Source: Deuterostichococcus epilithicus
Lineage: Eukaryota; Chlorophyta; Trebouxiophyceae; Prasiolales; Stichococcaceae
Length of the DNA: 64,000 nucleotides
Assembly (NCBI GenBank): GCA_033439295.1
Contig: JAVTLE010000013.1
Span: forward strand, 806,001 to 870,000
Direction: 5' to 3'
Below are positions 3,001 to 64,000 of this stretch, in pieces. The notes beneath the pieces were generated by a model, which saw only the letters and a list, made by a program, of their open reading frames with translations, did not search any database and was not told the DNA's origin. The translations under genes were made by a program, and so were the position numbers. How positions within the stretch are numbered: position 1 is the first letter of the stretch; the number at the start of each line of letters is the position of its first letter.

Positions 3001-6000
3001 TGAGCCAGAAGAGGGGAGGCGTGGGACACTCTGGAAGGAAGGGCGGGCAGGGTCGACGAAACCAGCGTGGGGCACCACGGGCGGAGCCGAGCCCGGCAGC
3101 AGGCGCCGCGAGCGAGGCTGCACGGTGACGGGAGACCGTGCGCAGGCCGGCACAGGTGCATGTGGGCCTGCATACTGCTGCTGACGGCAGGTGGGCAGAG
3201 CTCCGCGAAGTCGCGCGCACCGAGGTAGTCGTGCATGTCCACATCGTGCTGGTAGGCGATGAGGCGGCGGATGGTGGGGACGTGGCCGCCATTGGCGGCG
3301 GCGTGCAGGGGGGTGAACAGGTAGCTGTCCTGCGCGTCCACCCGCGACTTGAGCTCCCGCACCAGCAGCTCTATCAGGTCCTCCCACCCCTGTGGGAACA
3401 GATGGTGCAAACCTCAGATGTGTACAAGGTGGAGGCTGAAACCATCTGAGACGACGTTCGCGACTTGCCTTGAGCTCCCGCACCAGCAACTCCATCGGGG
3501 CCTGCCACTCCCGCAGAAGCACCGCTGGTGAATGAAGTGAGCAAGAATTTATTGTAAAGGAAACACTCTTGAACTTGAGCCCTGCAAGCGCAGCAGCTCC
3601 ATTGGGCTCTTTCACACTGGCGCATATTGCCCAGACCCTGTCTGTTGATCAGGATCGTAGGCGTGCAGGTTTGCAGGGATGTTTCCAGGGTCTTGAGGCA
3701 AGTGAAGCGGATGCATCGGTGAGTGAGCATGCTGCCTGCCAGCGCTGCGGCAAGTTTGAACTACCGGGCAAAGCTGCCTGGCTTTCATGTGCCCAGCTGG
3801 CTGGCCACCCAGCAGCGGGAGCAACCGAAAACGCACATGCCAGCACCCGCCTCTGGCTGCCCAGGGGTCCCTCGATCACCCCTGAAATGTTTCCTTTCAA
3901 GCCTTGAATGTGACCGCCATGGCTGCCTGGCTCACCTGCTCCGCCGCGACGTGCACCGGCGTGCGTCCCTCCCCGGACTTCACCCGCGGATCGCAGCCCA
4001 GGTCGCGCGCGAGCGTACGGACAGTGGCCAGCCGGTTCCAGGCAGCCGCGCAGTACAGCGGCGTGCAGCCGTCGCGGTCCAGCGCCGAGGGGTCGCACCC
4101 CTGCGTGATGGATGTAGGAAGACATCAGCACGGAAGCCGTACAGGTATGCACGTCAGTACAGGGTGGGAGTGCAGCAGCATGCAGCCATGCCGGTGCGGC
4201 GCCGACGTCTTCCACTCCTGTGTAGCGCCATGTTGGGGTGGGGGTGGGGGTGGGGGGGGGGGGGCTNACACACCCGGTGGGCACGCTGCTGCAGGCAAAG
4301 CTGTAGAGGGGGGACTGCACAACGCTCGGCCACAAGTCGTACACTGTGCCGCGGCACGCAGAACCAGGTGGGCATGCGACGCATCAGGCGAGGGCTCCAG
4401 CAGCGCAATTCTGCGGTGCGCACGCCTGCCAGTGCCGCAGAGGGATTTTTTGGTTCTTTTCTTGATGTTGACAATAAACAAAACCGCACCAGCTCCTGCA
4501 GCGCCAGGACGGCCTCGTTGTGGCCCTCGCCCGCGGCGACGTGAATAGGAGTGGACAGCACCGAGTCCGTGACAGACACGCTGCAGCCCAGTGCCACCAG
4601 CGCCCTGATCGCCGGCACCTGCGGCAGCGTTCACTGACACTCTGGCATGAAAGGGGACAGGCCAGATGTGCGGCTGGCAAGGACTGGCCAGGTGTTTGGT
4701 GAGCATCTGCTGCACCACATTGTTCGCTTCACCGTTCAGCTGTGCAGCGAGCTTGGGACAGCAGTGGCGACCTGCGGAGAACAGGCTGCGATGCTGAAGG
4801 CAGAGGCCCACCTTGTTGTACGCCGCCGCATAGTGCAGTGGCGTCCACGAGTTGGCGCTGCGGGCCAGCAGGTCGCACTTGTGGTCCTGCACATTGTCGC
4901 AACCGCAGCAGCTTCAGTGAAGTGGCCGACGGACTCAGATGCGCGGAACACTGGTCGCCAGCTATGCACAGCCACCCTGCGACGGCCTGCAAGAGTACGA
5001 CCGTATGCCAGCCATGCGCTGCCAGAAACTGTGGAGGAAGCCCAGGCTGAACTCGACGCGCAGATGTGGCCCACCTGCACGAGTTCCTCTATGAGGTCCA
5101 CGTCGCCGTTCATGGCCGCCACGTGCAGCGGGTGCCACGCCATCGTCTGCCGCACGATGGCGAGGCCGGGGCGCGCCAGGTCCACACGGGCCGCGACTGC
5201 CGCCCACGCCGGCGACTCCTCTGACACGACCGTCGCATCGCCCTCCTCCTTGGTGGCCACATCCCACCCCAGGTGCAGGAAGCCCATGAAGTCCTGGGAC
5301 ATGTGCGAACGACCAGCAAATCAGTGGAGGTGTCCCACCCGAGGAGCAGGATGCCCTCTGACTCGTTCAAGACGACTGGCCACATTCACTCTGAGCGCCT
5401 GACAGGCTGTCCGGGAGCGAGCAGGCTGCTCGTTGGGAGCGAGCTTAGGCGCGCAGCAGGGGTGCGACGCCAGAGCTGCTCGCAGGCCCGTAGCCTGACT
5501 CTCTCCTGCTCAGCCGGAATGCGGGAGCCTTCCGACGCGCCCCACCTGCATGCAGCGCTGGCGAGCGACGACGTGCAGCGGCGTCGACCCGTGCTCGTCC
5601 TTCAGCAGCGCGTTGACCAGCTTCAGGATGAGCGTGACCTGGTTCTGCACCGCCGCCAGGTGCACGGGGGTGCACCCCAGTATGTCCTTCTGCAGCAGCA
5701 GCGCCGGCCCCGCGTGCTCCGTCAGACGGTCCACGACCGCCAGGTAGCCGCGCATGACCGCGTGGTGCAGTGCGGTGCGGCCCTCACTGTCCCGGGCGGC
5801 GGCGTCCGCGCCCTGCGCCGTGTGATCGAATGCCTGTCACCACTCTGCGGCGTGACCTGCGGCCGCGCATGCAGCAGGGCACGCTGCTCGGCAAGCCTGT
5901 GATGCGGGGTCTGCTTCATAGCGCTGCGTGTGGCGCTGCGTCGTTGCAGCCGTGGGGTAGTCGGGAAGCTGTCCCCATAACGGCGCGCTGTCCGCCCGGG

Positions 6001-6100
6001 ACAGCACCGCGCGCCCGGGCCTCACCTCCGCGAGTAGCCTGTCGACGCCCGCCAGGTCATTCTGCTGCGCTGCCTGGATGATGGGCGCCGTCTTTGGCAT
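1..6100 (-). CDS. Ankyrin-repeat protein (3' end beyond window)
   Basis: A large ankyrin-repeat protein, presumably a protein-binding scaffold; no catalytic domain is seen. The ATG at 6100 opens with MPKTAPIIQAAQQNDLAGVD, a typical first half-repeat. Exons that join in frame: 6026-6100, 5546-5812, 5075-5293, 4812-4886, 4490-4618, 3936-4100, 3137-3389, 2767-2999, 2464-2637, 2085-2214, 1453-1881, 1005-1205, 650-735, about 165-343, then 1-16 running off the window. Repeat cores visible include GCTPVHLAAVQNQ, GSTPLHVVA, SWTPLHYAAAYNK, GRTPVHVAAEQ, FTPLHAAANGG, RTPLHYAAMHGRVDAI, ETPLHIAARSGRVD, STPLHYAAAFGQSA and GRTALHLAAGCGD. Exon 1453-1881 inserts a long Gly/Ala/His-rich low-complexity stretch between repeats. 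More than 850 residues lie in the window. The start is divergent from TRM61. No signal peptide or membrane segment was noticed. The specific partner and role are unknown. Confidence 0.85.
3469..3615 (-). repeat. Two decayed copies of the 5' end of ankyrin exon 3137-3389
   Basis: The exon begins GWEDLIELLVRELKS on the minus strand at 3389. In the intron just before it, 3469-3522 reads EWQAPMELLVRELKA and 3570-3615 holds a more decayed copy (same Met-Glu-Leu-Leu core, shifted frame). Both follow the order of the exon start. This is a local tandem copy, not a separate exon: using either copy would shift or duplicate the repeat. Confidence 0.75.
4234..4266 (+). repeat. G-rich simple repeat ending in an assembly N
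   Basis: A run of G3-5T units followed by a G homopolymer and one ambiguous base at 4267, inside an intron of the ankyrin gene. It could form a G-quadruplex, and the N suggests sequencing difficulty. Confidence 0.7.
5325..5372 (-). repeat. Decayed copy of the 5' end of ankyrin exon 5075-5293
   Basis: The exon starts DFMGFLHLGWDVATKEEGD at 5293. The upstream intron carries ESEGILLLGWDTSTD in the same order, about 40 bases before the acceptor. It is recognisable at both DNA and protein level and is not needed for the reading frame. Confidence 0.65.
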
Positions 6101-6973
6101 CTTGACAACTGCGGCCAGCCCCCCGCACGCCTGCCGCGCGTTTCAGATGCCTCTTCCTGCCGAGCTGCCAACCTTCCAGCGGCGCGGCTGCAAGCCGCAA
6201 TCCCCATACATGTGGGTGTCTGTAATGGGGCAGGCTCAGTCAGGAAAGAACGTTTTCTGCCCTGCAGCACCAGTCAGCGAACTCTTGCACAGACGACCAA
6301 GCCGTACCTCGGCAATGCTGTCTCCTCTAGAGTGGCGCTGCAATACACAGTGAATATGAATTGCTGAGTTTGTAGCGCCCGATGCATGCGCACAGGCTGC
6401 CCGTCTGGGTGGTGTAAACCGGCAGGCGCAAAGCGTTCCAACTGTGAGCGGCGCTCCACCGGCAGTGCGGGGCGGTGCGATGCGGATCCCCAGGTGCACT
6501 TGCAAGTTTGCAGCATTCAGATCCAGGTCGATGCGCCAGCTGCTGCTAAAGCGTCTGGGCGGGCTCGAACATCGGCGATTGGATTAGAGTGTTATGTCCC
6601 CTGCGACACCGAAGTCTTCAGCGCGCGGTGACCAGTCCCGCAGTCCGAGAGCATGAGCTTTGCCCGCTTTGCCAGCGCCACTTGCGCGTTGCTGTGACCT
6701 GTGAGTCTCATTATCAAATCTGACTGCCAGGTCTTCCCGAGGCCCCTGCGTCACTGGGCACATCGTCTCGGTGTTTCGGAAGCCATTTCGGAACAACCGC
6801 ATGCGAGACCGTGCATGGCAGCGGCCTCATTTGTGTTTCGAGGTCTGGCGGCAGTCCTCAGCATACAATTTTTGATGTTGATTACATAGCATCTGCAATC
6901 AGCGCGAGATCACTTAAGCTCCTGCCGACGGCAGCCGTCATCGTCAGCAGCGCCACCGCAGCGTGTGTGTGCC
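6101..6973. other. Divergent intergenic region, ankyrin / TRM61
   Basis: 870 bases between two divergently transcribed start codons, so it must hold both promoters. I see no convincing ORF, RNA gene or named promoter element in it. Confidence 0.6.
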
Positions 6974-10500: not shown

Positions 10501-10716
10501 TCAGATCAGATATTGGCGGCAGTGCTCCGGAAGCTGACCGTGCAACGGTGGGTCCGGGGACAAATTTCGTCAAGCAAGACTGGGCAAACCCACATGAGTG
10601 AGTGCTTGTGAGGGCTGGGTTGGCGTGCTGTACCACTGGCGCAGTCGTTCGCTTTTTGCTGTATGCCAGTTAAGCACCACAGCACCGTTTTACCGTAGTT
10701 CATCAAGCATGGTCCA

Positions 10717-13273: not shown

Positions 13274-15213
13274 TCATCGGTTGTCATCCTTTACCGACTC
13301 GAAACGTGTGGGAGTGTCCTGCGGCCACGGTTGCGTTGTCAGGTTGGGTGCCGTCCCTCACACAGCAGAGCACAGCACATCGACATGGGTACAGGCATAA
13401 CGTCAATCTTCACCGCCATGGGCTGAGGATCGAGACTCACCAGGATGCCCATGCAGTATGTCCCAAACGCGAGCGCCACGATCAAGACGATCAGCAGCAG
13501 GCCTGCCTCGAGCTGGTTGACCTGCGGCGGCACAGGAAATGTTGCGTATGAGGCTGGATCCAGGCTCGGGGGATGGACTCGGTGTGGGAGTGTAGGTCTG
13601 GGTCAAACTGCCGGTGCTGTCATCCCCTGCGCCTGACCGTCTGGCATCTCTGTGGCTTGCAGGCTGTGTCAGACCGCACACCAGCTCAGCCAGCGCCGGC
13701 CCTTCTGAAGGATCATCTCAGTGGACCCTGTACATGTGCGCTTATGAGGAAAGTTTCAGTTTGCGCACCTGCGTCTTGCACCTGGCGTCGCACACCAGCT
13801 GGCCCGGCGCCGGCTTTGGGCTGGGAGCCGCCACTCCACTCCTTTCTGCGCTCTTTGCCAGCAGCGTGCGCTGCGCGCCCATTGCTGCCAGGCCCTGCGC
13901 ATCGCAGCGTAGATCCTGAGAATTTGCTGTCTCAGGACGAGCAAAGTTTGTTGCTTGCATTCGATTTGACGGCCTGCTGCTGACTGTGTGTGGAAGAAGC
14001 CGAAGTCGCTCTTGCCAATGAGAAGTCCACCCAAGGGCTGTTGTAAATTGCAAGGGCAGGTTCTCTCGATGGTGCCGCACGTCCGGCTCGGAGGCGTAGA
14101 CGAACAGGTGGCGTGCCCCCGCAGCCGCGACTGCCTCCCTCAGCGCCTGAAGCACTGCCGCCTGGTCCTCCAGGGCATCCCCTTCCGAGGCGCAGACCAG
14201 CACCGCTACAGGGCTGGCGGGGGCGCCGGCAGCAGAGGCTGCGCTGAGGTCCGGCAGCGGGTGGCCAGCCAGCGGCGCCGCGGTGGCGCTGTCGCAGGTG
14301 CCCAGCCGGTGCAGCGTGGCGCCGCCGGCGGCCGCTGCGAGCCTCGCCTGCACGCTGCCGGCTCCCTGCGGTGGCACACGTGCAATATTTCGGAATGCGA
14401 TTTCAGACTGGAAAGCAACGGGATCGGCAGCTGCAAGTGGATCGTGGTCCGCCGTCATGGACGGCATGCGAGCATGGTGGCGCCGAGGCCACCCAGCATG
14501 GTGGGGTGCGTCATTGCAGCAAACGAAATGTACCACCTCGTGGTGTGTGAAGGGCAGCGACACCGAGGCGGGTGCAGCGTCCAGGGCTGCCTTCACGTGT
14601 GCAAACTTTGCTGCGCTCGAGGCATCGACCTGCGGCCATATCAACAACTACGTCGCGTCACCTTGCTGCGGCGCAAGATGTGTCTGAGCTGCGACGCATC
14701 GAACAGCATGTCGACCAACGACCGGCACAGCCTGTTCAGGAAGCAAGATGAGGACAAGTGCAACTCCGACCTTGCTTCCGAGGAAGATGACGGTGACATC
14801 AGGCCTTGCCGCGCCCACACGGAAATACTGCTCAGCCGCAGGCGTCAGGGCCCCACCGCCCAGCAGGCCTCCGACCAGAGACTCCAGCAAGCTTGTCGTC
14901 TCGCCCTGCGCGCGCATCTGGCAGTGTTGATGTTGTAGCAGCAGTAGACAGGCAGGCGGGCGGCCNGNNGGGCGGTGTGCACAGTGCTTGCGGTTTGGAA
15001 CATGCGCAGACGGAGCCCGCGTAGGAGCTGCAGACTACAGACTGGGCGTGAGGTCTCGGCTTTGAATTTATGCACCTGGTAGGACACGCGGCGGTCAGAC
15101 GGGCCAGGTGCAATAAACTCGCTGGAACCCCACGCAAAGGTTGCAGACGGGACATGGCTGGCGCTGCAGACGGACAGCGTGCCGATCAGCAACACGACGT
15201 ACGCAAGACGCAT
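13274..15213 (-). CDS. V-ATPase assembly factor / accessory subunit, VOA1/Ac45-like
   Basis: Type I membrane protein resembling plant VOA1/Ac45 C-domain proteins, which assist V-ATPase V0 assembly in the secretory pathway. Exons: 15076-15213, 14771-14905, a short exon ending at 14662 (boundary unresolved), 14537-14629, 14081-14365, 13769-13894, 13441-13521, 13274-13318 (about 300-310 aa). The signal peptide is MRLAYVVLLIGTLSVCSAS. The lumenal part holds VTVIFLGSK, PVAVLVCASEGD and ARHLFVYASEPD, matching the plant pattern LVVLCSEG...YVSDP. Near the end come VCDARCKTQ, a single span EAGLLLIVLIVALAFGTYCM, and the family signature DTPTRFE just before the stop. The Cys pair before the span is conserved. 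In the doubtful exon, a stretch LVDMLFDASQLRHILRRSK fits the plant alignment, but no acceptor gives the right phase except at 14688. N bases at 14966-14970 lie in the first intron. Confidence 0.7.
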
Positions 15214-17454: not shown

Positions 17455-18234
17455 GGAGCTGAGCTTTGGGAGCAGCGCACGGCCGCGTGGGTGCTTGCTG
17501 CAGAGCCAGGGGACGCTTGCCTCTGAATTTGACTTGGAGTTCTCGTGCAACACGTTATACTCGCCAGTGGTGTGTTGAATGCAAGTTGTAGTCTCATTTG
17601 TATTGTAAGGTTCCGATTGGTGAAGGTCTCGTTCATTACATGCTGGTTTTGCAAGACGTACAAATGGAAAGCATGGCTGAAGTGACACCTTCCAGGATGT
17701 TTCCGGGATTTCAACTGTGCCCTGGTGCCACCGATCTTGTCAGAGTTGAATAATGCACCTGCAGCGTGCGCTCAGCGTCTCCAGTCGTGTGACTGTTCCT
17801 CCGCAAAAGCGTCCTCCCACCAGGTCGATGTCTGCATTGCCGCCACAATCAGAGTTATCACTTGTGCTATTACATGCCAGCGCAGCTGAACATGCAGCAG
17901 GCCAGGCAGCATTGCCATCTCAAAGGCACTACAGCTTGATCAGTGCATCGGAACAGCACCTTGTATCCCCTCCTGAAGAAGGCCATGGCAGAGCCCTGCA
18001 GAGGCAGGGGAGGCCATCAGCACATCGGAGAATCGATCAGAGCATCACAAAACATGCCAGACCGCAGCGACAGTCCCCGTCATGCGCCAGCCCGCAGCAT
18101 GTGCCAGCCCACACCCCAAAAGTCAACCCGCATCATGCATCAGTCCACATCATGCGTCAAGCCGTAAAGCACCAGCCTGCATCATGCATCAGCCCGCGCC
18201 TCCACCTCGGGGTCCCATGTACTCGATATACGAA
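17455..18234. other. Convergent intergenic region with short tandem repeats
   Basis: 3' flanks of MSRA and the DUF1995 gene. 18060-18200 holds four to five imperfect copies of a roughly 27-base unit built on CCAGCCYGCATCATGCATCA. No gene was recognised. Confidence 0.6.
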
Positions 18235-21200
18235 TCATGCGTCCGTGACACAGACTATGCAGCATGCAACAGGCCGCACCTCCTCCTCGGTGTTCAGCCC
18301 CATGGAGATCATCAGCTCCTCCTTGAACTGCGGGGCCAAGCATCGAGGAATTTGGGTGAGTGGCAGCCATTTCGGGCAACGGATGATCTGTACGATGGGC
18401 ACCTCACGAGCAGCCTGCCGCATGCTCCTTGCGGTGCACTCCTAGCATTGCAAGCCATATGCAAGAAGACGAGCCAGCGCCCGGAGATCGTTGCCACACA
18501 ACGCAAGCGCTCCGACACAGGACGCCATCGCCACGATGCAGGACGCGGACTAGCGGATGCTCATGTATGCGCAACTGCCGCAGCAGACGGCGGCACGCCC
18601 ATTCCTGACGGTACGAGCCAGGGAAGCCCTGGGCTCACGCACCTCCCCAAGGTTGTACCGCTGGCGGTCTTCGGCGACGCAGACGTAGGTCCCCGTGCCA
18701 TCCTGCTGCCGCAGCAAGACCTGCCAGGGGCCCGGGTACTCCCGGAAAAGCGCCCCGCTGTAGTTTATGATGTACGGCGCCACGGAGACGCTCTGCGCAT
18801 GCGACGCACACACGGCAGGGTCGGCGCGGCTGGGATGTGGCGGTGCCTGCAGCATCATGGGTGCCCTGCACCACGATGGGTGTCGCGCCATGACGAGCGC
18901 ATGCTTCGGAGCTGTGCCCCGGGCTGCAGAAGCTGCCTGGCTCAGAAGTTTGGCAGGCGCTCGGCCGACTTGGCTGGCTCGGCCCCGCCGGGGTTGCGGC
19001 GCAGCGTCCTCCGACGAGGTGCGCCGCCGCCGCCGCTGCTGCAGGTGCCATAGCAGCGGTGCAGCTGGCTGCTGCAGCCGGCCAGCTTGGTCGCCCCAGC
19101 ACGGTGGGTCTGGAAAACAGGTTCCTGCAATCCCGCTCCGATGCCGCTGCACTGCATCCCCCACAGCTCCCATGCTGCATCGCCCGAATCTGGCCGCAGA
19201 TTCACACTCAGTAATGTCCCACCTTGGAATAGTCGCGCTGCCGGATGTAGAAGACCGGCTTGAAACCCGCCAGGAAGCGGTACTGCAGGTCCTTCGACGG
19301 GAAGCCCAGCAGCCCTGCGGTAGGGGGAATGTCTGTCAGTCATGCGCCAGTGCGAAGGGCGCCCGCCTGCTGCGCCGTGCCCGCTGCGGCTGCGCAAGGC
19401 GGCTATGCAAAGCACCCAGGAAGGTTGCACGGCCTTCGTCTGGCTGCACCCCGTGTGCGGCCTGCACTCTGCAATGCGCCAAGGATTGCCCCGCACACAG
19501 CGTGCAGCGTCTCGACTTCGATGCACGACACAGTCTCGTTCATGGAATGCTGGCCCAGCTCCCGCAGGCACATGCCTTCGCCATGCACGCTGGAGGAATT
19601 CCTCGCCCTGCGCACAACTTCGCAGGAACTTCTTCACGCAGCTCGACAGACTTGGCCGCCGAGCGTGGCATTGGCGGCGCCTGAACGGGCGTGTGCTCCC
19701 TGATTTTGTGAGGTTCGTGCGGGAGAAGGGTCCGCCGGAGCAGGTCCCGCGGTACACAGGTCTCTGCCGGAGAGGATTCAGCCGGATGCAAGGTTCTGCC
19801 AACAGCGCAGAGAGCGCACCCAGGTCGGCGCACAGTCCGCCTCGAGATGTCTTCCAATTCTCCAGGGGTTCACTCAGATTCAAGACAACAGGTTCGGAGG
19901 GGCCTGCCGGATTCCAACTGCTGGATCCCGCTGAAGAGGGCTCAAGCGCACCCAGGTCAGCGCGCAGGTTCCCAGCTCCAGGCAGCCTCCAAACAAATCT
20001 GAGGCGCTGGTTTCTGACGATTCTGCCGAAGAAGGCTGACTCAGCTAGACACACTCACCCAGGTCGGCGCGCAGGGTGTCCAGCTCCAAGTTCCACAGCA
20101 CGATGGGCTTGCCGCACACGACCTCGTTCACATAGTTCTCCAGGTCCACCAGCTCCACCGTTGAGGCGTTCACCTGCGCAGAGGGGTGTTCGGTAGAAAC
20201 CGGTTGATTGCAACAGTGCTGCGGACCACCTTCTCGTTCACATGGTGTTTTGGGTCCACCATTGCATTGAGGCGTTGACCTGTGCAGGAGGCTTCCAGGG
20301 TTCTCAGTCCAAAACAGTGGCTGCTTCATGTCTCAGGTAAGCATCGAAGTCCACCAGCTCCATCACTGACACGTTCCGCTGCGGCATGGAGAAGTTCCAG
20401 CGTGTTTTGGCCAGCGTGTCTTGGAAGATGGTGTTAGCTTCATAGTCCATAGTCCATAGTCCATAGTTCATAGTCCGTCGTCGTAGCGTGTTTCATATCA
20501 CGGACTGCGTGCTTCGCGGGCGCACGGTGGGGCAATAGGCCCCTCCAGAGCGCAGCGGGCGAGCCAGAGTGCCCGCATGCATGGCGTGCGTAGCGGTGGC
20601 GCAGCATGTTCAGGCGCGTGTACACGACACCAGACCGCCTGTATTGTTGTGCAGGTTCTCAGGCTCCCTGGCGCTAGCAGGCAACCGGGTGCTCACCGCC
20701 ATGAAGACGTCTGCTTGCTGCGCCGCCTGCGTCTGCTGCAGGTTGCTGCCAGCGCCATTGCCGCGCCCAAACAGCGAGCCAAAGGCGCCTGCGAGGTTGC
20801 GCTTGTCCTCTGTGAGGTACCCCATGCTGACGCCAGGCGACATGTCAAGCGCTGATTTCGACCTGCCGCAGGGAGATAGAACTTCAGGCCTGCATCAGCA
20901 ATTCCTGCCCCCAAGTGAGGCTCGTGCTGCGGACAGCATTCTCTCGCGGTGCTTGACAGTCACTCGTGCGCACTGAGACAAGGCACGGCACTCACAGTTT
21001 GTACGATCGCTTGTACTCGGTCGCGTCCGGCACCACAATGTGCACCGTTTTGCCAGATTTCCGAATCTGCAAGCAGAGACACGAGCTGTCATGGGCTTTG
21101 AAAGCCAAAGCGTCATGTCCGTCATCAGGAAGGGCGCAGGATCATGCAGGGATCGCTGCAGAAAACTTTCATCTCGCCTGCCGCGCTGCCGCAATTGCCA

Positions 21201-24519: not shown

Positions 24520-27500
24520 ATGAAGCGGCTGTTTGGGCCCATCGTTCGTCTGCCAGGGCAGCTCAGCCACGCCCTGCACAGTACTTCAGGCGCTCACGCC
24601 GCCATCGAGTGCCCCAATTGCGGCACGCTCGCGCGCAGCGTCGACTGTAAGGCAAATGTGGTGGGCCGCGCCGGCGGCGCTGGCAGTGGCGGCAGCAGCG
24701 GCAGTGGCTCCGTCACAGGCGCCGCACGCCGGCAACAGCAGCGATGTGCCAGCAGCTCTGATGCAGCGGCGCAGCAGCGGCAGGAGCAGCTGGTGGCAGC
24801 CAGCAGCTCCTCGCAACGATCAACACCTCAGGCGGCAACGGGCGCAGGCGGCAGGCAGTCGCTGAGCCAGCTGCTCATGGTCGGCGGCTTTGGAGGCAGC
24901 TGCCTGGCCATTGGTTACGCGTGAGTCCTGCACACACCGCATGTGTTTGCATGTACGATGCCGCAGGCTGGAGGTTCACTGCCTGCCTCAAGAGATACCC
25001 GGCGCTGTGACGCTCGCTACACATGACACTGGTGCCGTGATTTCAACTTGTCAACGTTGAACAATTTCCTCATGCAGATCGAAGTCGTGGGGTCTGTCGA
25101 TCGACAGCCTTGCAGAGGGATTCTGGCCGGAGGGTGAGGTCACTAACGAGCGTTGCGCTGCATTGGCATAGCACTTGCTGTGATTGCTGGAGTCCCGGGC
25201 ATTCGATGCTGATGGTGCCTTCCTGGCTTGACTGTGCAGGGCCCTTGGTTGTGGATGTCCCCGGCGGCCACATCAGCATCAGCCGCGCAAAGTCCGCACC
25301 CGCGCCGCTGCTGTCGCCATATTTCATTGCCGATGCAGCCGCCAAGGTGAGCTTGCTCCCGGAGCGCTGGCGAATGTTTGCGCCTGCTGTAAGCATCGAC
25401 AGGAGGCAGCACTCGCCGTGTTGGCCCAGATGCACCTATCGTGCCCATACCATGTGTGGCCATGGGTCCTGAAGGCTCCAGGGCGACGACCTGACCTGCT
25501 GGTTCCTGCAGGTAGCGCCAGCAGTTGTGAACATCACTGTCCGGGACCCCCGGCGCCCGATGGATACCGCAGAGAATGGCTCAGGCGAGTCCGCAGCTCC
25601 TCTGCATGTTGCAGACGGCGTGCCCTGTGACCTTGGTGTGGTACCAGACACACAGATGCACACTACAGCGATGTCCGCTCGCACGAATGCATGTCGCCCG
25701 AACAGCCTTCGATCAGGCGCCTCTGTAGAACATGGCCTGCCTATTCGGCCTCGGGTCCTCGCAGGCTTCATCATCAGCGCCGGCGGCACGGTTGTGACCA
25801 ACACCCACATCGTCGCCGACGCAATTCCTGCAGCCGGCAGATCCAGCAGCCGTACCATCACGTGCACCCTGCAGGACGGCCGCAGCTTCCAGGCAGACCT
25901 GCTGAACTTCGACTGGTGCGAGCACAGCCCATCGTTTCGTGTGTTGAACCATTTTGCTGCATGCTCGTGACCCGTCTGTAGCGCCATGTGAGGAGTGAAG
26001 TCAGCACTTGCAGATGCATGTTTTAGTACCCGGACACACTTTGCGCCAGGCCTCTGCTGGACACAGCTGGCTGCACAGTGTACTTTCTGCTGGCTACGCA
26101 TTTGGTCGGATCTGGCGACGCTGCAGATCCACACGGCCACACAGTCGCCGGTCGCTGCCCTGCTGCTCGTGGCTGCCGAGTCCACTTTGACAATTCAAAA
26201 CCCACCCCCATCCATCCAACCCGCAGGCAGTCGGACCTGGCGGTGCTGCAGATTCATGCAGCGGCGCAGCTGCCGGTCGCCAAGCTGGGCGCCTCCTCCG
26301 CACTGCGCGTCGGCGAGTGGGTCCTCGCCCTGGGCAGCCCACTGCACCTGAGCAACAGGCGCGTCCGGTGGAAGGGTCACTACGTCTCAGGAGGATCTGT
26401 GCTTGACATCCTCCGCCGCGAGAAACTCCGGCGTCCTGGGAACCACGCACTCCTGCTCTAGTATCCCCTCCTTGCCCTGAGCGCCCCGCTGCGCCCCTGA
26501 GCGACAGGTGTGGCAACAAGCGCCCCCCAGCCTGCTACCCTGCAGTCTCCGAACCCGCTGTAGACGGCCGGAAACCCTGCTCAGCATGCAAGTGGCCGTG
26601 CGTGCGGCACGCAGCATCACTCCGGCGTAGCTCGCGGCGAGCTGCTACTTGTTGTGTTCTCTCGCCTGCCGCTGTCATGGCCGGACAGTGAACCTGTCCC
26701 TGGTCCGTAGATAGGAGGATGACTAGTGTGCCGCAGCGTATCCGCAGGCAATGTGTCGGCAGTAAACCGCAGTTGCGGCTCAGCCCATGCATCCAATGAT
26801 CAGAACAGAAGTTTAGCTACATCTCCTGATGTGCCGCTGCGTGCCCGCGGGCGTCGTGCTGGCTCTGCAGTGCACCATCTCAACCAAAACAGAGTTCGCA
26901 GTTGGAAGGCCCCTGAGACCTTTCATCGCGCCGCAGCGTGTCAGCGGGCATCGTGTCAGCTGTGGAGCGCAAGGGCGCAGAGCTGGGGCTGGACGGCGCG
27001 TCCACCGACTACATCCAGACAGACGCAGCCACAGCCGCCGGCAGCTCCGGCGGGCCCCTCGTCAACGTGCAGGCGCGCGCGCCATGACTCCAGGGACCCC
27101 TGTGCCCCAGGGCCGGTCGCTGTCTCGCAGCTTTCTGAGTGGCTCAGGCGACTGACGACTTCAGGACCCTGTGCAGATGGAAGGCAGAGTCACCACTGGT
27201 AGAAGTCACCACCGGTAGAGGGTACTTGGCAAGTGTTCACACAGTGACGTCGCCAGGAGCTGTTGAGGTTTTCTCAAACACCTTGTCAGCTGGTCGGAGT
27301 CTGAACCCTGGTCGACGCGCGGCGCAGGGCGAGGTGATCGGCATCAGCAACCTGAAGGCCATCGCGGGCGACTCTGTCAGCTTTGCCATCCCCATAGACA
27401 CAGCGAAGGACGTCATCATGCAGCTGCTGGTGCCCGGCGGCCGCGTTGCGCGCCCCTACATCGGCTGCAAGACCCTGGAGCTCAACTCCAGGTGCGCACT

Positions 27501-35629: not shown

Positions 35630-36440
35630 GCTGATCAATTTAACCGTGGTTGCTCCGGCGGCCCAAAGTTCGTCGTCGTCAATGCGCCTCATCGATCCGA
35701 CGCTGGAGTTATGTGACGGCAAAGGCATGACGGTCAGCCCTGCAAAACCGGCGCGCGGGGGTTGTGATGTGCCATAGCGCACGGCAGAAGGCGGCCTGGC
35801 CTTATGCTTGGCGGCAGGGTTGCACCGCACGGCGCACGCGTGCGCACGCGCACGCGTTCCGCACGCGTGCGCACGGCCGCACGGCTGTGAGCACTGCCGT
35901 GCGCACGTTGTCAGACGCTGTCAGACAGTAATGTAATCCAGCTAGACAACAGCTGCCGGCCTGCTACAGCGGCTGCAAATGAGACGCAACTGCACATCAC
36001 CGCCGTTTAACATGTTGCATACATCATCTCAACGCATAAGATATATGTGCAGTGAGGTTGTATGCATTGTTCAGCCTGTTATGGCCCAGCGCAGCCTGTA
36101 TCTTCATTCCCCTGGGGGATTAACACAAGCAGCCGTGCGAAAGTGCCGTTCCCTGCCGTGCGACGTGCGCACGCGGTGCGCACGCGTGCGCACAGTCGCA
36201 CGTCAGTGTAAAGTGACGTGCGGTGCAACCCTGCTTGGCGGTGCGGCGACACGCCGCTGCAGCAGTGCGACTCTTGGAAATATATCGGCCTCACCTTCAC
36301 GGGAACCCGCGGCGTCGCAGGCGGTATGCTGGAGGTGCAGCGGCGGCAGGGTGCAGCCAATGGCTTGCTACGCCAGCGCTTTAAGAAGCTCAATTGCCAG
36401 TTCGATTTCGACCTTATGCTCCAGTCGTCTCCGACAGCAG
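35630..36440 (+). mobile_element. LINE fragment, middle of reverse transcriptase, split by a MITE
   Basis: Left part ends LELCDGKGMTVSPAK plus VVMCHSARQKAAW, and the right part resumes CGDTPLQQCDSWKYIGLTFT then GVAGGMLEVQRRQGAANGLL. These match the K-T-x-V-M...F-K-Y-L-G-L-x-F region of LINE reverse transcriptases. A 419-base MITE (35815-36233) sits between them. Without the MITE and one copy of its 8-base duplication the two parts are adjacent. The catalytic ADD box is decayed (LINLTVVAP at 35632-35660). Confidence 0.75.
35815..36233. mobile_element. Non-autonomous hAT MITE, 419 bp
   Basis: Terminal inverted repeats begin CAGGGTTGCACCGCACG at both ends (17 bases perfect). An 8-base target duplication CTTGGCGG flanks it (35807-35814 and 36234-36241). 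An 8-base duplication with CAGGG ends is diagnostic for the hAT superfamily. Both arms carry clusters of ACGCGTGCGCAC, typical of subterminal transposase-binding repeats. No transposase ORF. It is inserted into an older LINE fragment. Confidence 0.9.
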
Positions 36441-43500: not shown

Positions 43501-43550
43501 ATCTTCTCTTGCAGGTCAGGTATCGCGAGAGGAATTTGAAAAGAAAAGGC

Positions 43551-46686: not shown

Positions 46687-47335
46687 CTGATTGGGCTCGA
46701 AGGTCACGACGGTCTGCTGTGCAAGTGACGAATGAGGCACGGATTGCACCTGCACCTCACGTGGCTGCAGCAGATCGCTATGCCCTGCTGGCACTCCTCG
46801 ACACCAGAAGCTGAGATGCAGAGCATACTTCACCCGTGGAACTTCAAACGATGAGATCGCCGTAGAGCATGTCATATGCTTGCCAAGGAGCCTTTGGCCA
46901 CGGCGCCTTGAGGCAGCAGGTGGGTCCTTTCGAAGGCAGCATCCGACCCGTGTGCAACTGCATTGACGATGGCATGCGCGTATGACGGATATTCCTGACC
47001 GCAGGGTAAGCGTCAAGGAACACTTGCACAGCAAATCCGCAGCCAGCAGACCCGCATCGAGTGTTTACACACTGCCGCGCCGGCAAGAACGGTGCCGCTG
47101 AGCAGCAGGCGTAGCATTCTGCTCGCCCGTACGGAGCGTCAGACTCCGATCTGCAGCAGCCTGCACAGTGCTACTCAGGGCTCCGACAACGGTGAGTGTG
47201 CACGAGACGCTCCAGGTCAGACATTGTGCGGTCCCACGACGGTCACATTGAGTGCCAGCTGCGCCAGCCCCACGCTGAGGCGTTGTGATGGCGCCTGCCC
47301 CATCAGCTGCGCCTGCCCCATTCTGAAGCATTGTG
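46687..47335. promoter_or_regulatory. Divergent promoter region, TraB / CLC
   Basis: 649 bases separate the two start codons. The CLC-proximal end holds a 48-base tandem duplication and an upstream ORF (separate entries). No TATA box was identified. Confidence 0.5.
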
Positions 47336-47350
47336 ATGGCGCCTCCAGGC
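47256..47350 (+). repeat. 48-bp tandem duplication spanning the CLC start codon
   Basis: Unit 1 (47256-47303) begins CAGCTGCGCCAGCCCCACGC and contains TTGTGATGGCGCCT. Unit 2 (47304-about 47350) begins CAGCTGCGCCTGCCCCATTC and contains the same TTGTGATGGCGCCT with the true ATG at 47336. Confidence 0.85.
47288..47326 (+). promoter_or_regulatory. 12-codon upstream ORF made by the duplicated start site
   Basis: The first duplication copy has its own ATG at 47288, which opens MAPAPSAAPAPF and stops at 47326, ten bases before the CLC ATG. If transcribed in the leader, it would act as a start-proximal upstream ORF. Confidence 0.6.
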
Positions 47351-51962: not shown

Positions 51963-52799
51963 TCACTTTTGCAGATCAATGCCGAGGCGGGCCAGGCATT
52001 CGCGCATCTTCTTGACCTGCACAGCGCCAAACCCCAGAGGGTCTTGCTCTCAGGAGCATGTGCACAGCTTGGGGCGTGCATGTGCAGCTGGTGTGTTGAC
52101 GTTGTTGGGCGCTGCGTTGCCCGATGCGGAGCAGGACATCGATGCAAGTGGTGATGGAGACACGCTGCATGCAAAGCAGTGCTTGCTGCAACTCCGGCAC
52201 AGCGCCCCATCCTACCTCCTGGCTGCAGTTGTCCAGCACAATGTCGCCGCGCGCGAGCGACTTCGAGTAGCAGGCCTGGTAGTTCACCGCCGCAGCAGGG
52301 CAAATCAGCTCGGAGTACCGTTCCAGCAGCCGTACCTGTGTGTACAACATGCTGATACAAATTTGTAATGCTCAAGACGGATGCCGCAGGGGCCCTACTG
52401 AGAATGGCCTGCTAAAATGCGCCATTGCGTCTGTCATGTGTCCAGCAAGAATTCCACATCCGCCAGTTTCGCAGGCGCCGCATGCTGACGTGAGCTGGGG
52501 TGCACAAGGCGCTGCATGCCGACATGAGCTGGTGAGCACAAGGCGCCACATGCTGACATGAGCTCGTGTGCACACACCGGCTTGAAGGCGAATGCTGCAC
52601 AGTACGAAGGTGTTTCAGCACGTCATGAAGGTCAGCCTGACGCGGAGCTCACCTCCAGCTGCTGGCAGTTGGTGGCATCGCCGCCGTGTGCCTTTACACA
52701 TGACTTGTATGCTTTCCGCTCCGGCCGCAGCTTCTTGCGCAGCCGTTCCTGCTGCTCAGCGGGTAGGTGCTTGCTGCTGCCGCCGCCGAACGGCCACAT
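51963..52799 (-). CDS. CHCH (twin CX9C-like) protein, probably mitochondrial intermembrane space
   Basis: Small Cys-rich helical protein of 106 aa. Exons 52653-52799, 52216-52335, 51963-52016, phase 0. It starts MWPFGGGSSKHLPAEQQERL and then has Cys pairs CVKAHGGDATNC, CPAAAVNYQAC and CSQEVKKMREC: one C-x10-C and two C-x9-C spacings. Such coiled-coil-helix folds are oxidised by the MIA40 pathway in the intermembrane space, and several are cytochrome oxidase assembly factors. Which member this is cannot be said. Basic helix RLRKKLRPERKAYKS precedes the first Cys. Divergent from MND1. Intron 1 holds a minisatellite. Confidence 0.8.
52472..52575 (-). repeat. Minisatellite, three copies of a roughly 35-bp unit
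   Basis: Units begin GGCGCCGCATGCTGACGTGA, GGCGCTGCATGCCGACATGA and GGCGCCACATGCTGACATGA, each ending with GAGCTG/C and GCACA. It lies in intron 1 of the CHCH gene. Confidence 0.85.
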
Positions 52800-58317: not shown

Positions 58318-61300
58318 TCAAGTGGCGTCAATCAGCGACGGCAGCTCAGCGCCTGGTAATAATGCGGTCTGCGCGTCCCGCCACCGCTTGATTGCACCCT
58401 TCAGCCCGCTCTCCACCCCGTGCGGCATGTGGATGCCGACCCAGACCTGCGCGCGGACACGCAGCCAGCATCGGCTTCAAACCTGCAGGGATCACCGAGT
58501 GTGCTGGCCGCAAGCGCCGCCGCTCGCAGCTCGTCTGTCAAGAGCCTCTCTCCACAATCCAGGCTGCGCCAGTGCCAGAACTGCACTGCCACAGAGCAGA
58601 TGCGCACCTTCGCTGGTCGATCATCCGCAGGCGCGCCCCCGGAGTCCGCCGGGCTGCTCCTGCTCCCGCCGCCGGCGCCGCCGCTGCTGCTGCCGCCGCC
58701 GCCGACGTCACCCCCCATGGCGTCACCGCCAAAGGCCTCGCCAGAGAGCGCCGCCGGCAGGTCGGCTGTCCGCACGGCGCACCGTTGCCCCAGCGGCGCC
58801 TGCTGCAGCAGCCACTCCGGCGGCGCGGAGCCGTCGCCGGCGCCGGGAGGCCGCACGAACATGCTGCGCAGCGCCCTTTGCACCTCCTTGTACATGCGCT
58901 GCAGTGCAGGACAGTTGGGGTTGCTGGAACCAGCACGGTTTCTTGCTGCCGAGGCACACTGGAGGCGTCACCAGTGCTGCAGTCCCGAGTCCACCAGCAT
59001 GTATAACCATCAGCATGAACACCAAGACCGAGGCAGCGCTCCAGCCCGGTGGGGTGCCAGTCCTTGGCGGAGCGACTGCGATGCATGCTGAAACTCCTTG
59101 CAGGACGCCTAGCTGCTCTGGAGGCGCACGCTTCACCAAACGTCGCTCGCAGTCTGCCACGCTTTGCACCTGGGCCAGCACGATGCAGTCGTGGCGCAGG
59201 ATGGTGTTGCAGCCCTCCGACAGGCTGGTCTGCGTGCGAAACTCGGCGATGATGCGCACGAGGCGGTCCCGCAGCGCGGGGATGCGCATGCCTGGTGGTA
59301 TCTGCTGCACCAGCTGCAGCGGGTTGACATGGCCGCCTATGGAGTCCAGCAGCTGGCCTGCGGGTGCGCAGGGCGAGCAGATTTGGTCTGGCGAACACGG
59401 CGCACAGCAAGCACATGTGGAGTCGACACCCAGTCGGTTGGGCCCGCGCCAGCATTGCGTCAATGTGAAGAGGCTTCAGACACAGCTGCTGCGATGCACC
59501 AGACGACACCCCCTCCCAACTGGTCGCATCCAATTCCCATCAGCTGGGCATTGTCGGGATGCCAGCGTCCGGGCGAGGAGGCGCCACAGAAAATCGACGC
59601 TGCCTGGACGGCGTGTGCGCACCTGTGGACACGGTGCACCGCAGCACCGCGCGGCGACTCGGGGGGCATGCAGTGTCGGAGGCAGATATGCGGGGATGCG
59701 GCGCCACGAGCCAGACTTTAGGGTTTGTGCCCGCGCCTGTGGACTCCGGGTCCCGCAGCGCCAGCGCGATGAGGTGCTGCCACAGCTCCTCGTCCGCCTG
59801 GCCCTGCACGAAGGCGATGGCGGCCGGCACGTCCGCCAGCCGCCCGATGATGAGCTCCAGCGCTCGCGCAGCCGCGCCCATGCGGCCCAGCACGTGCACC
59901 TGCGGCCGGGGGAATGAAGTCGACAGGATACCGAGACGAAAAACGACTCTGCCGGGACGAATGTCCCTGCCCGCACAGGCTTGCCCGCAAGGAAGTGTGC
60001 CTCGGTGCACCGAAGCACTCGTCGAAGCATGGCACGTTTGGGACCAAGGAAAGGAGCTGTTCTCCCAGGGAGGCCTGCCAGAAGCTTCAGCTGCGCAGCA
60101 CGCCAGCGACGCTGGGCGACGGGGGCCGCCCCCGGGGNAGCAGCAGAGTGGCAGAGGGAAAGTCTGGGCAGAAGCTGCGTGCCCCACACCTGCTCGGGGA
60201 CGAGGCCGCGGCGCTCGCACACCGCGAGGGCTGGCTCCAGGCTGTAGCTCTGGCTGGCTGTCAGGAAGGGCAGCAGCGCACCCGGTTGGTACTCCGCATA
60301 CAGCTGCACCTGCGCAGCGTGGAGAGGGTGCGGAGCCTGAGCAGCTGGGTCGGGAACCGCCTGAGCACACAGATCCTCCCCCGCGTTTGTGGTTTCTCCA
60401 AGGGGCGTGTGGACGCCTGAGACCCACTGGGGACTAGGATGGAGGGGCGATGTCACTTTCCAGGGGCGCGCCGCTCTCACCTGAATGTCTGCGAAGTCGG
60501 CACCGGCCGCCGGGTCTCGCTGGAACAGGGCGTCCAAGTATACATGCAACCGCGTGCGCCACAGCGCCGCCTCTTGCGCCTTTTCTGGTCCGCCGCTTTC
60601 CGCCTCTTGGGCGATCGCCTGCGGACGGCGCATCATCAAGGTCGTCAGGCACCAGGAGTCGGAGGTGCGCACCCGGGGCCGGCGCCAGCCGCGTGTAGGC
60701 GGACGCAAGGTGCAGGAACCACAACTCGTGACGGCGGTGCACAAGAGGCCAGTCCATCCAAGCCGAATGCTTCCGGTCTTGCCGCTTGGCTCACGTACGT
60801 GCATGCCGGCCGCCACCCCGCGCGTGTGGCAGCCTCGCATGAGCACACAGGTGCTGCGACGGCAAGGCATCCAAGCCGATTGTCCTGGTTGTTGCAGAAG
60901 GCTTTACGCGCACACCTGCATGGCTGCCACCACCTGGCGCGGGCGGCAGATCGTCGTGGTGCTCCACCAGCGACTGTGCATGATGCAGGACAGCATCCGT
61001 CCTTCTCAGGGGCTGTCCTGCGCACCTGGATGGCGGCCACCACCTGGCGCGGCGGCACCTCGTCATAGTGCTCCACCAGCAGCTGCGTGGCGCCCGGCGC
61101 GTCGATGCGCATCAGCGGCACCACGTGCGCCCCCATGGCCTGCTCCATGGAAAACAGACGACGTTTTTACCAGCGCCTAACCTGAGGTGGCTCGTGGCTC
61201 CCCAAGAGGCGTGCAGGCGGCTGCGTGGCGCCGTCCGCGCCGATACGCATCAGCGGAACCGCATGGGCCCCGGCAGCCTGCTCGAATCAAGCAAATGTCA

Positions 61301-64000
61301 CTTGAAAGAATGCTGCATTTCAGGCTGCTCGTATCAAGCATGATGCTGTGCAGGCGGCTGCATGGCCGCACCAATACCGCGGCGCAGCAGCACACTCAGG
61401 CCACCTGCCGGGGCATGAACCCGTGCCTCACACCATGAGACAGGTCCCAACTGCCCTGCACCCTCCAGGGTCTCGATAAGATATCCGTGTTGCCGGTCCA
61501 CCTGGAAGAGGCCGTGCTCGGAGATGTATGAGAGGATGTCGGGGCGGCCCAGGCGCAGCAGGATGGCCATGGCCAGGTCCGCCCGCCCCTGCACAGCAGG
61601 CATAGCCGGGGGTCACGACACAGCATGGCGACCTGGCACCATGGCGCGACGGCTTCGGGGGAGGCAGGAGCAGTCGACGAGGCTGACGCAGCCGGGACAC
61701 ACAGCAGACCAGGTGCTCAGCCCCAGAGGCTGAACGTTTGGGAGGCGCGCCTGCAAGGTGTACAGGTGCGCGGCGACAGCCATGAGGGCGGGCGTGCCGC
61801 CTCCCAGCGACTTCATCCTGCAAGAGTTTGTGTTTCCTTTAGGCAGGGCCTCTTACTGCGTCAAGCTGGGGGTGTCAGTCTGCCTGCGCTGCGAGACCGG
61901 CGGCAGCATGCCAGCAACCGCAGCCGCCAGACTGCAGTTGCATCAGAGACACACATAGGCTCTGGCATCCGCGCAGAGTCGCCGAAGCCCGAGTGCCGAA
62001 GGAACCAGGGGACGCTGTTGCGTCGGTGCACGGCTTTAACAGCTTCAGTTGGTGTGTCAAGGGACAACAATGCGCAGGGAAACACTGAGCCGCCGCACCA
62101 TTGCGGGACGGCCCCCGTGAGCGCGAAAATGTGGATGGCGGAGGGGCAGGGGTGGGGGAGGAAGCGGTGAAAACACACTGGGCGCCGCACCGGTGCAGGG
62201 CAGCCTCCATGAACGTGTGCAATCGGGCTGCAGAGAGGGGCCCGGGGGGGGGGTTCAGGGTGCCGGCACGGACTGGACGCCGCACCGGTGCAGGGTGGCC
62301 TCTGTGAGTGCGGGCACCGAGTACAGCTGTGGCGGCCAGCGCCGCAGCAGCGGCAGCAGCTGGTCGTGGTGCGCTGGCGACAGCAGGAACGCCGTGAGCA
62401 CCTGCGCGCAGAGACGCCGCCCTGACGCAGACAGCCCGAAAGCGTCTTTCCGATGCTCCCAGATAGTCGGTGACCGACGTTATGATTGCACCGACCTGAT
62501 GATTGCAGGCAGCCGAGCCGGTGGGCTTCAGGCTCTAGCACGAGAGCACAGCGCAATTGCAATTGCAGAAGACCACTCAAGTTTCCCGCCGACTTTGTCG
62601 CTCGTGCGAGTCAGCGAGATGCCGTACCATCTCATATGCCTGCCGCCGCAGCTGCGGCGCCATGATGCCGATGGGGACGTGCGGCGCCAGCACCGGCAGC
62701 TGCCTGTGCTGTGCAAAGATGTAGACCTGCCGCTCCCACGCCGCAGCGTCGTCCTGCGTGGCACGATAAGCAGACACTGGCCTGCTGGCTTCTGCCTGCC
62801 TCTCACCATGTACCTGTCACCCAAGGGCGCCACTTCAAAGCAGCCTTCGAATCGGAATCACAGGATGCCTGAGATGGGTTTGAAACACGACGAAGCATCA
62901 ACAGGCATATCGCGTCTCAGCCCAGTGTCACTCGCCATGGTGGCGCTGCTGCCGCCAAGTACAGGGCCAGCTTCAGGACAGGCACGCGGGTTCTGAATGT
63001 ATGTTGTCATTCACCGACCTTCAGCAGCTCGGGGCACAGCGCGGCGGCGTCAGCAAACTTACGCTGCCCCAGCAGGAACTGCAGGTACTGCATCGCCACC
63101 TGCGGTGCCCCACACGCAACACCCTCACGGTGAGCTAGGGCTCCAGCCTCCCCAGAACACATCAGCGATAGACCAACAGCGTGCAGAAAGGAGTCCTGGG
63201 AGGTCTGTTCAGCCACAGGTCGCATGCGCCACTGCATGGCTTGCACCACACAGCTGACACCCTGATATTCCCGGCGACTGATCGTCACACTCAGCATCGA
63301 CGAGACGCAGCCAAGACAGCTGAGCCAGGACCGGCGGCGCGCCCACCTGCTGGTGGTTGTGCTTGCGCAGGCTGCGGTCGGTGGCTGCGATGGCCAGCGC
63401 CTCCCGGAAGCGTCGCCGCTGCAGCAGCCACGCCACCCGGTCGTCCCCGTCGCGTGGCCGCCCCACCACCACGTCCTGTTCCGAAAGATGCATTCGCCAC
63501 CGTTCCTCCGGAATCTGGTCACCACATTCAGCTGCGCTTGTGCAGAAGGACCGGCTGGAGGTGCTGCATCTTCTCCCAACTCCTTTGCAGCTTTGTAAAA
63601 GTTCTGTAAAAGTTCGAACCGTCACGACAGTATGCCATGTAGCCATTCCCACCCCGCATCCGCCCGACTGCCCCACCACCACGTCCTGCCGCAATGAGAT
63701 ATTTTCGCAACAGGAATGCAGTGCTGCCGTCACCCCAAAGCACGACTGATCAAGCTCCACTTGTTGTGCAGTCGCCTGTGCAAACATTGAAGATGATGCG
63801 GCGCCGCGCATTTTCAACGTGCAGGTGGTGCCTGTGCAGAGTCCAGCCGGAATTGGCAGGGGCCGATCGCCTTGAGTTTAGAGTTGGACCAAGACCAGGG
63901 GCGCACGCATGGGGTGACAATGTAGTACAGTGGCTCGTAGCCACCAGGCCACCACTTGTACTCTGCCTTCTTCGGGGCGGTCAGCCGCCTGTCCGCCTGC
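58318..64000 (-). CDS. VPS41: VPS41, HOPS complex subunit (5' end beyond window)
   Basis: HOPS tethering subunit for vacuolar/late-endosome fusion. Visible exons: 63907-64000 (partial), 63347-63475, 63019-63099, 62628-62753, 62286-62401, 61751-61817, 61502-61588, 61026-61139, 60481-60618, 60190-60309, 59737-59899, 59170-59357, 58608-58898, 58318-58446. Landmarks follow plant VPS41: WPGGYEPLYYIVTP, GDDRVAWLLQRRRFREALAI, QYLQFLLGQRKFADAAALCP, AWERQVYIFAQHRQLPVLAP, LLPLLRRWPPQLYSVPAL, RPDILSYISEHGLFQ, TRLHVYLDALFQRDP, VQLYAEYQPGALLPFL, VHVLGRMGAAARALELIIGR, PPGMRIPALRDRLVRIIAEF, SEGCNTILRHDCIVLAQ. The WD40 N-terminus is outside the window. After RMYKEVQRALRSMF the usual RING finger is not visible; instead there is a Gly/Ser linker and a short tail VWVGIHMPHGVESGLKGAIK. 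Introns after 61751 and 59737 use GC donors (CAG|GCGCGC, CAG|GCGCGG). One N at 60138. Confidence 0.92.
60789..60975 (-). repeat. Two decayed copies of the 3' end and donor of VPS41 exon 61026-61139
   Basis: The exon ends GAGCACTATGACGAGGTGCC ... GTGGTGGCCGCCATCCAG with donor GTGCGC. 60909-60975 repeats GAGCACCACGACGATCTGCC ... GTGGTGGCAGCCATGCAG followed by GTGTGCGCG. 60789-60840 keeps GGTGGCGGCCGGCATGCAC followed by GTACGTGAG. Each sits in the intron after the exon and keeps a plausible GT donor. Confidence 0.8.
61216..61284 (-). repeat. Decayed copy of the acceptor and 5' end of VPS41 exon 61026-61139
   Basis: The exon starts GAGCAG|GCCATGGGGGCGCA and runs to CGCCACGCAGCTGCTG. The copy, in the preceding intron, starts GAGCAGGCTGCCGGGGCCCA and includes CCGCTGATGCGTATC and GGCGCCACGCAGCCGCC. 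A weaker second copy may lie at 61350-61410. Confidence 0.8.
62179..62225 (-). repeat. Decayed copy of the 3' end and donor of VPS41 exon 62286-62401
   Basis: The exon ends GAGGCCACCCTGCACCG|GTGCGGCG. The copy in the next intron reads GAGGCTGCCCTGCACCGGTG then CGGCGCCCAG, so exon end and donor are both kept. Confidence 0.8.
63641..63695 (-). repeat. Decayed copy of the acceptor and 5' end of VPS41 exon 63347-63475
   Basis: The exon begins ACAG|GACGTGGTGGTGGGGC (DVVVGRPRDGDDRVAW). The copy in the preceding intron begins GCAG|GACGTGGTGGTGGGGC (DVVVGQSGGCGVGMATW), identical for the first 17 bases and then diverging. Confidence 0.8.

Follow-up and report, generated by a model that had tools for sequence, protein, structure and literature searches.

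The window analyzed here is a 64-kb stretch of Deuterostichococcus epilithicus DNA (JAVTLE010000013.1) with a GC content of 60.7% and numerous short GT-AG introns. Genes were modelled using a small hidden Markov gene finder whose training data were the window itself. Pfam searches of the resulting products identified a DUF1995 gene (PF09353), a gene with trypsin-like (Trypsin_2) and PDZ domains that represents DEG14, as well as TraB, GCD14, an MND1 domain, VPS41 and a CLC channel. Ankyrin repeats were found by direct translation and Pfam, and a predicted six-exon gene, g3 (13274-14917), had no Pfam match. The curated gene models drop some exons of the gene finder, and some of the corrections were made after the repeats described below had been spotted.

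An earlier note on this DNA had claimed that exons of at least four unrelated genes are accompanied by partial copies ("echoes") in the adjacent introns, the 5' part and acceptor being repeated before the exon and the 3' part and donor after it. We aligned probes consisting of 60 nt of exon end and 10 intronic nt to their own adjacent intron and scored matches at a threshold of at least 30. Matches were obtained for 13 of 224 probes (112 introns of the curated models; 5 donor and 8 acceptor ends). In comparison, dinucleotide-shuffled versions of the same introns gave a mean of 0.02 matches per 224 probes (50 shuffles) and their reverse complements none (0/224), so that exon-end matches clearly exceed those in shuffled introns. 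Other introns of matched length gave a mean of 0.07 per 224 probes (30 draws), which argues against a dispersed repeat. When donor ends were aligned to the upstream intron and acceptor ends to the downstream intron, no match was found (0/188), in agreement with the proposed side rule and against duplication of whole exons. Since the gene models had partly been corrected after echoes were seen, the probe test was rerun on the uncurated models. Here, 12 of 246 probes matched their own intron, with no matches in reverse complements, in shuffled introns (20 shuffles) or on the wrong side (0/208).

An annotation-free BLAST scan of the window (shifts of 40-450, score of at least 30) identified 35 direct and 7 inverted pairs compared to 0.4 in shuffles. 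By hand count, the direct pairs comprise 22 echo pairs, 9 exon-exon pairs (7 of them in the ankyrin gene), 3 intergenic pairs and 1 intron-only pair. The repeats in the ankyrin exons are ordinary protein repeats and were dropped as echoes. The scan added three junctions (DUF1995 exon 18280, VPS41 exon 59737 and VPS41 exon 63475), bringing the total to 16 echoed junctions in five genes, namely those encoding ankyrin repeats, DUF1995, DEG14 and VPS41 and the g3 gene (heterogeneity of echo loci across genes, p=0.064). The claim of partial exon copies in at least four unrelated genes was thus borne out. An ungapped scan with shifts of 20-450 gave 41 pairs, whereas three shuffles yielded 2, 0 and 1; it also recovered one intron-only pair (47256/47304) absent from the BLAST output; BLAST scans miss shifts below about 50 bp, matches near the self-match probably being dropped. 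Weak echoes with scores of 22-30 were not in excess (2 seen versus 4.9 in shuffles). Within the 64-kb window the echo pattern is real and clean.

A profile search was also run, in which each exon end was combined with the closest echo into a profile whose matches were compared with the best of 40 shuffles. In the ankyrin gene (minus strand), the acceptor end of exon 3221-3389 (source segment 3346..3403, profile score 54.2) is repeated with a shift of 121 in intron 3390-3935 at 3468..3523 (probe score 56, profile score 50.1), and a second, weaker acceptor echo lies in the same intron at 3573..3620 (profile score 10.9 versus 5.5 for the best shuffle). Further acceptor echoes belong to exon 3936-4100 (4169..4226; shift 117, probe score 35, profile search) and to exon 166-343 (424..476; shift 113, probe score 39), the lenient homology of the latter spanning 134 source nt with a score of 28 against a null maximum of 20. 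Exon 5075-5293 has an acceptor-side echo at 5333..5368 (shift 71, probe score 33) whose alignment starts 8 nt inside the exon. In g3 (minus strand), exon 13769-13894 is followed by a donor echo at 13644..13700 (shift 114, probe score 32, profile search).

The DUF1995 gene (minus strand) carries echoes on both sides of exon 20059..20173. Its acceptor echoes lie at 20224..20298 (shift 110, probe score 42) and at 20343..20383 (shift 205, BLAST scan and profile search), and part of the second was called as a 24-nt exon by the gene finder. Its donor echoes lie at 19942..19981 (shift 107, probe score 42) and at 19814..19836 (shift 239, BLAST scan and profile search). Exon 18280-18327, known from the gene finder only, has a donor echo at 18145..18222 (shift 80, BLAST scan and profile search). 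The intron that holds the acceptor echoes also contains five copies of the heptamer CATAGTC (20441-20476). In DEG14 (plus strand), exon 26227-26367 has an acceptor echo at 26097..26155 (shift 125, probe score 42) and a donor-side echo at 26469..26520 (shift of about 148, probe score 32), and exon 26937-27066 has two acceptor echoes, at 26827..26874 (shift 97, BLAST scan and profile search) and 26724..26770 (shift 200, exon-end probe and profile search).

In VPS41 (minus strand), exon 61026..61139 (PF23556) is echoed on both sides, by donor echoes at 60902..60970 (shift 110, probe score 80) and 60786..60833 (shift 227, BLAST scan and profile search) and by an acceptor echo at 61217..61291 (shift 138, probe score 63). 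Near 61348-61366 a further copy matches this acceptor echo in BLAST, yet does not rise above shuffles in the profile search. Exon 62286-62401 has donor echoes at 62152..62223 (shift 93, probe score 40) and 62072..62125 (shift 188, profile search and ungapped scan), the exon ending at 59737 has one at 59600..59651 (shift 114; BLAST scan, lenient alignment and profile search), and exon 63347-63475 has an acceptor echo at 63657..63699 (BLAST and profile search) with a shift of 210 that may represent two units. The upstream and downstream echoes of exon 61026-61139 stop at about the same point of the exon, a CAGCTG (61070-61085). This is suggestive of a common breakpoint near 61079 for both echoes, and could be chance.

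The distance between a source and its nearest copy is about 71-148 bp, with one exception at 210. Homology crosses the splice junction into the intron, and at several loci (e.g. 62286, 18280, 61139, 20059 and 26937) it fills the whole repeat period, so that the copies are contiguous. It even exceeds the full period at VPS41 62286 (-30 to +122, shift 93) and at DUF1995 18280 (-24 to +118, shift 80), where it extends 118 nt into the intron. Little or no intron-side homology can be aligned at 13769, 26227, 26367, 5293 and 4100, where it is lost through decay and the full unit is deduced from the spacing. Homology that runs through the junction and over the period on the intron side indicates genomic DNA joined head to tail rather than copies of spliced RNA. 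Direct orientation, as seen in the excess of direct over inverted pairs in the BLAST scan, and local spacing are likewise those of tandem duplication, in support of the earlier proposal of local tandem duplication around splice junctions. For six junctions, namely ankyrin 3389, DUF1995 20059 and 20173, DEG14 26937, VPS41 61026 and 62286, a second copy clearly exceeds the shuffles, and for a seventh, DUF1995 18280, it does so marginally (6.9 versus 6.4 for the best shuffle). Up to four copies per exon had been proposed; the profile search supports only one or two per junction. Spacing within arrays is often similar (93/95, 97/103, 110/117), though not always (107/132), and the shifts do not favour multiples of three as unit lengths. 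Three exons bear echoes on both sides, which is more than independent events would be expected to give.

We then compared the nearest copies with their sources. On the exon side, 158 of 742 sites were mismatched with 45 additional gap columns, compared to 231 of 840 with 150 gap columns on the intron side. Stronger divergence of the intron side would be expected with selection acting on the exon half and both intron halves drifting. This difference is absent at some loci, being level at 26937 and 62286 and reversed over few sites at 20173 and 63475. Pooled exon-side divergence was about 21% in lenient and 17.6% in strict alignments. Individual loci ranged from 9 to 29% in lenient alignments, compared to the 15-30% claimed previously. 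Mismatches were evenly distributed over the codon positions (54/251, 45/243 and 59/248; p=0.36), without the third-position excess expected of a coding alternative exon, and divergence was homogeneous between loci (p=0.70); both tests used nearest copies only, and VPS41 61026 entered with 113 exon sites of which about 55 are securely aligned. Adenine-targeted or error-prone copying was considered and rejected. Substitutions are of all types and the intron side is gappier and more diverged, which is better fitted by ageing.

Outer copies diverge more than inner ones, with 58 versus 31 branch-specific sites in seven of eight arrays; this pool includes DUF1995 18280 with its marginal second copy and omits VPS41 61139, whose outer copy was not above shuffles when compared with the exon. 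When only arrays whose second copy is clear are counted (six arrays), there are 45 versus 25 such sites, with DEG14 being level. The greater divergence of outer copies suggests that duplication recurred at the junction itself. It also speaks against triplication in a single event, unless concerted change was involved.

Echoes do not appear to belong to the conserved proteins. Spliced without them, the VPS41 protein matches the TPR_Vps41 model (PF23556, 333 positions) from position 1 to 332 with E=5e-87, and adding echoes lowered Pfam scores from 195.8 to 184.9 bits for a VPS41 fragment and from 58.2 to 54.0 bits for DUF1995 (echo at 20343..20383), indicating that echoes are not part of either conserved protein. 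No relative without the duplications was found in viral contigs (query GCD14) or in prokaryote contigs (query VPS41), and a plasmid search with the first 25 kb of the window gave one unrelated match of 51 bp.

Taken together, we consider it probable that the echoes arose by head-to-tail tandem duplication of junction-spanning DNA, which was spliced around and then decayed neutrally. Segments of about 70-150 bp straddling an exon-intron junction would have undergone head-to-tail duplication, and some junctions would have been affected twice. Splicing would have stayed with the outer junction, leaving the mRNA unchanged and turning the inner copy into intron, where it would have decayed neutrally with the source exon half fixed by selection. 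Because this half is held by selection, echoes would still be visible today. The reading builds on the tandem geometry, the junction-spanning homology, the side rule, the flat decay over codon positions and the longer host introns described below, all observed in the window. That the outer junctions are those in use is suggested by protein conservation, and the duplications themselves may have arisen by break repair.

Related processes have been described. Hellsten is said to have reported intron gain by tandem genomic duplication in 2011, Gao and Lynch reportedly described internal gene duplications in eukaryotes that contain exon plus intron sequence and activate splice sites (2009), and Vaughn and Bennetzen reportedly traced small tandem duplications to break repair (2014). 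The internal duplications resemble echoes in being partial and lying within genes. Intron gain by tandem duplication also involves a small duplication with AG/GT, of which one copy becomes intronic and the coding sequence stays unchanged. There, however, an exonic segment gives rise to a new intron, whereas the units found here span an existing junction, include intron flank and lengthen an old intron. Tandem duplication of exonic AG/GT segments is a route to new introns (PMC2891723, PMC3443670), as exemplified by a potato RdRp gene (PMC4974935), and small tandem duplications are a product of break repair (PMC8355091). Break repair is therefore a known source of short direct duplications; association with splice junctions is not mentioned in the relevant passages of PMC8355091, and a base-level signature of break repair is illegible in the echoes because about 20% divergence blurs their breakpoints. 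Duplication of tandem or mutually exclusive exons (e.g. PMC5740500) also places exon copies in introns, but these are whole exons with both splice sites, in contrast to the half exons with one site seen here. The view of the earlier note that no described process fits was too strong, given that both small tandem duplications and their contribution to intron gain have been published (PMC2891723, PMC3443670, PMC8355091). Among the matches listed from the open-licence literature we found no account of half-exon copies straddling existing junctions. A mutation of a known kind explains the echoes best, with an outcome, old introns lengthened by echoes of their borders, that was not described among these matches.

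As to why the copies sit at junctions, differences in survival and visibility offer the simplest account and can explain much of the placement. Within an exon, a tandem duplication alters the protein, but when it spans a junction, splicing can bypass it. In the interior of an intron it does no harm and fades about twice as fast because both copies decay. A duplication process that is itself aimed at splice junctions, for instance through breaks caused by transcription, R-loops or splicing, is possible within the 64-kb window, and we regard it as rather unlikely. In its favour, units lie around the junction, with an exon part of 42 +/- 12 nt (24-63 nt), an intron part of 69 +/- 16 nt and an average length of 110 bp at 15 of the 16 loci (VPS41 63475 was omitted because its shift of 210 may represent two units; exon parts were read from BLAST and lenient alignments, and ankyrin 3389 was set to 44, where a lenient alignment reached 81). 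Uniform placement would give such exon parts with P=0.00009 for the maximum and P=0.001 for the mean. If each unit is required to contain about 40 nt of intron, most of this signal is removed and P rises to 0.03 and 0.22, respectively; such a requirement is natural for acceptors, with their branch point and pyrimidine tract, and we see no good reason for it at donors. The exons echoed on both sides also fit targeting. The same holds for the repeats away from junctions, since BLAST and ungapped scans of the whole window found five non-junction pairs, two intron-only (34- and 48-bp units) and three intergenic (shifts 69, 167 and 318), and none with a unit of 71-148 bp. When copies were simulated at a divergence of 0.15-0.18 each, about 7-14 non-junction pairs would be visible under random placement, and with placement restricted to the observed geometry the shortage became stronger. 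At 0.20-0.25 per copy and with frequent indels, however, about 1-8 are expected and the shortage fades. Over ten uniform settings the probability of five or fewer pairs ranged from 0.006 to 1 and that of none in the 71-148 bp class from 1e-6 to 0.5, intergenic opportunity being taken as 18,000 bp of gene-free windows, of which 14,900 bp lack a coding-like frame. Because the simulated outcome hinges on age and indel rate, we dropped the shortage of intron-only pairs as proof of targeting. The idea that the process must aim at junctions is not supported, as survival and detection bias can account for much of the pattern. A more specific form, a junction-directed process active mainly in a past period that time and again copied a module of nearly constant size, about 40 nt of exon and about 70 nt of intron, beside the exon, so that long introns largely consist of their own junction modules, appears distinctly unlikely to us. 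If true, it would mean that the long introns of this lineage are largely made of their own splice-junction modules.

Selection that maintains the echoes because they function as alternative exons or as splice sites of a decoy or regulatory type would be suggested by the GT or AG kept at 13 of 18 echoes with an aligned junction (hand count; 23 echoes are listed), some of them with full consensus. We judge this retention to be near the neutral expectation, as estimated for 20-30% divergence, and the equal decay over codon positions, the single exon end per copy and the unit lengths without bias towards multiples of three make selection very unlikely. Echoes often keep a junction dinucleotide, as the earlier note stated, and decoy splice sites are indeed present in the sequence; this retention does not call for more than neutral decay. 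Intron gain through tandem duplication of an exonic AGGT segment would draw on the same mutational raw material. It predicts that the start of the downstream exon is copied at the 5' end of the intron, whereas acceptor echoes are found towards the 3' end, upstream of the acceptor by one unit length (positions 189-213 of 252, 266-321 of 389 and 424-467 of 546), and echoes include intron flank, which renders this origin highly improbable. Echoes on both sides of three exons could finally be read as remnants of whole-exon tandem duplications of which half was later deleted. The lack of wrong-side matches in curated and uncurated models, copies that never contain both exon ends, and exon parts of at most 63 nt, or 81 nt in one lenient alignment, leave this scarcely credible.

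If junction-spanning tandem duplication is the source of the echoes, it may have acted steadily or in a past burst. A steady neutral flow, in which the few young echoes are due to chance or to collapse of near-identical 110-bp repeats in the assembly, has in our view somewhat less than an even chance. Under steady birth and decay, the probability of seeing no echo at 8% divergence or less was 0.003, and the log-likelihood was -43.5 compared to -36.2 for a single age near 0.20, with approximate detection weights. This test used lenient alignments of 16 loci, with VPS41 61026 hand-trimmed to 7/55 and VPS41 63475 entered as 8/44. The homogeneous divergences and the missing excess of weak echoes also speak against a steady flow. 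On the other hand, there are only 16 loci, VPS41 63475 shows 0/16 exon mismatches in strict alignment, and the shortage of young echoes presupposes that young repeats were not collapsed during assembly. Moreover, inner copies seem younger than outer ones, so that duplication was not confined to one moment. The intron-only repeats (47256 and 52473; 48- and 34-bp units) are 12-15% diverged between copies and thus younger per copy than the echoes, indicating that short tandem duplication did not stop; these young repeats slightly lower the odds of a past burst as well as of the junction-directed reading. The first of them (47256-47344) lies within a CLC channel gene intron and consists of two tandem units of 48 bp, which are 88% identical over 41 nt and unrelated to any exon. 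The second (52473-52574) comprises three tandem units of 34 bp and belongs to an intron of a small gene that resembles COX6B. A GC-rich 66-bp direct repeat with 79% identity and a shift of 318 lies in intergenic DNA (35839-36222) and matches in inverted orientation too.

Introns with an echo are longer, with a median of 398 bp (n=12) compared to 179 bp without (n=102; Mann-Whitney p=6e-7), and an echo is present in 8 of the 14 introns with a length of 350 bp or more. These data support the suggestion that such duplications lengthen introns, although the association is partly built in because each duplication lengthens its intron. Should the share among long introns hold genome-wide, junction-spanning tandem duplication would be a main route of intron growth, a process that is poorly resolved in general. 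It would then also provide a built-in supply of additional splice sites and leave a legible archive of small duplications, since the conserved exon half keeps what plain intronic duplications lose. For annotators the echoes are a warning, as the gene finder mistook parts of several of them for exons or donors.

The proposal that echoes shift exon edges has a single candidate. The VPS41 exon ending at 59737 has a weak GC donor, and its echo 114 nt downstream carries a GT donor that fits the consensus and keeps the phase. Use of the echo donor would add 38 codons; the added stretch scores as intron, and with it the Pfam score drops from 195.8 to 178.1, so that the would-be extension looks intronic and a shift of the exon edge is not supported here. 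The segment 59600-59766 might represent a donor shift in the making.
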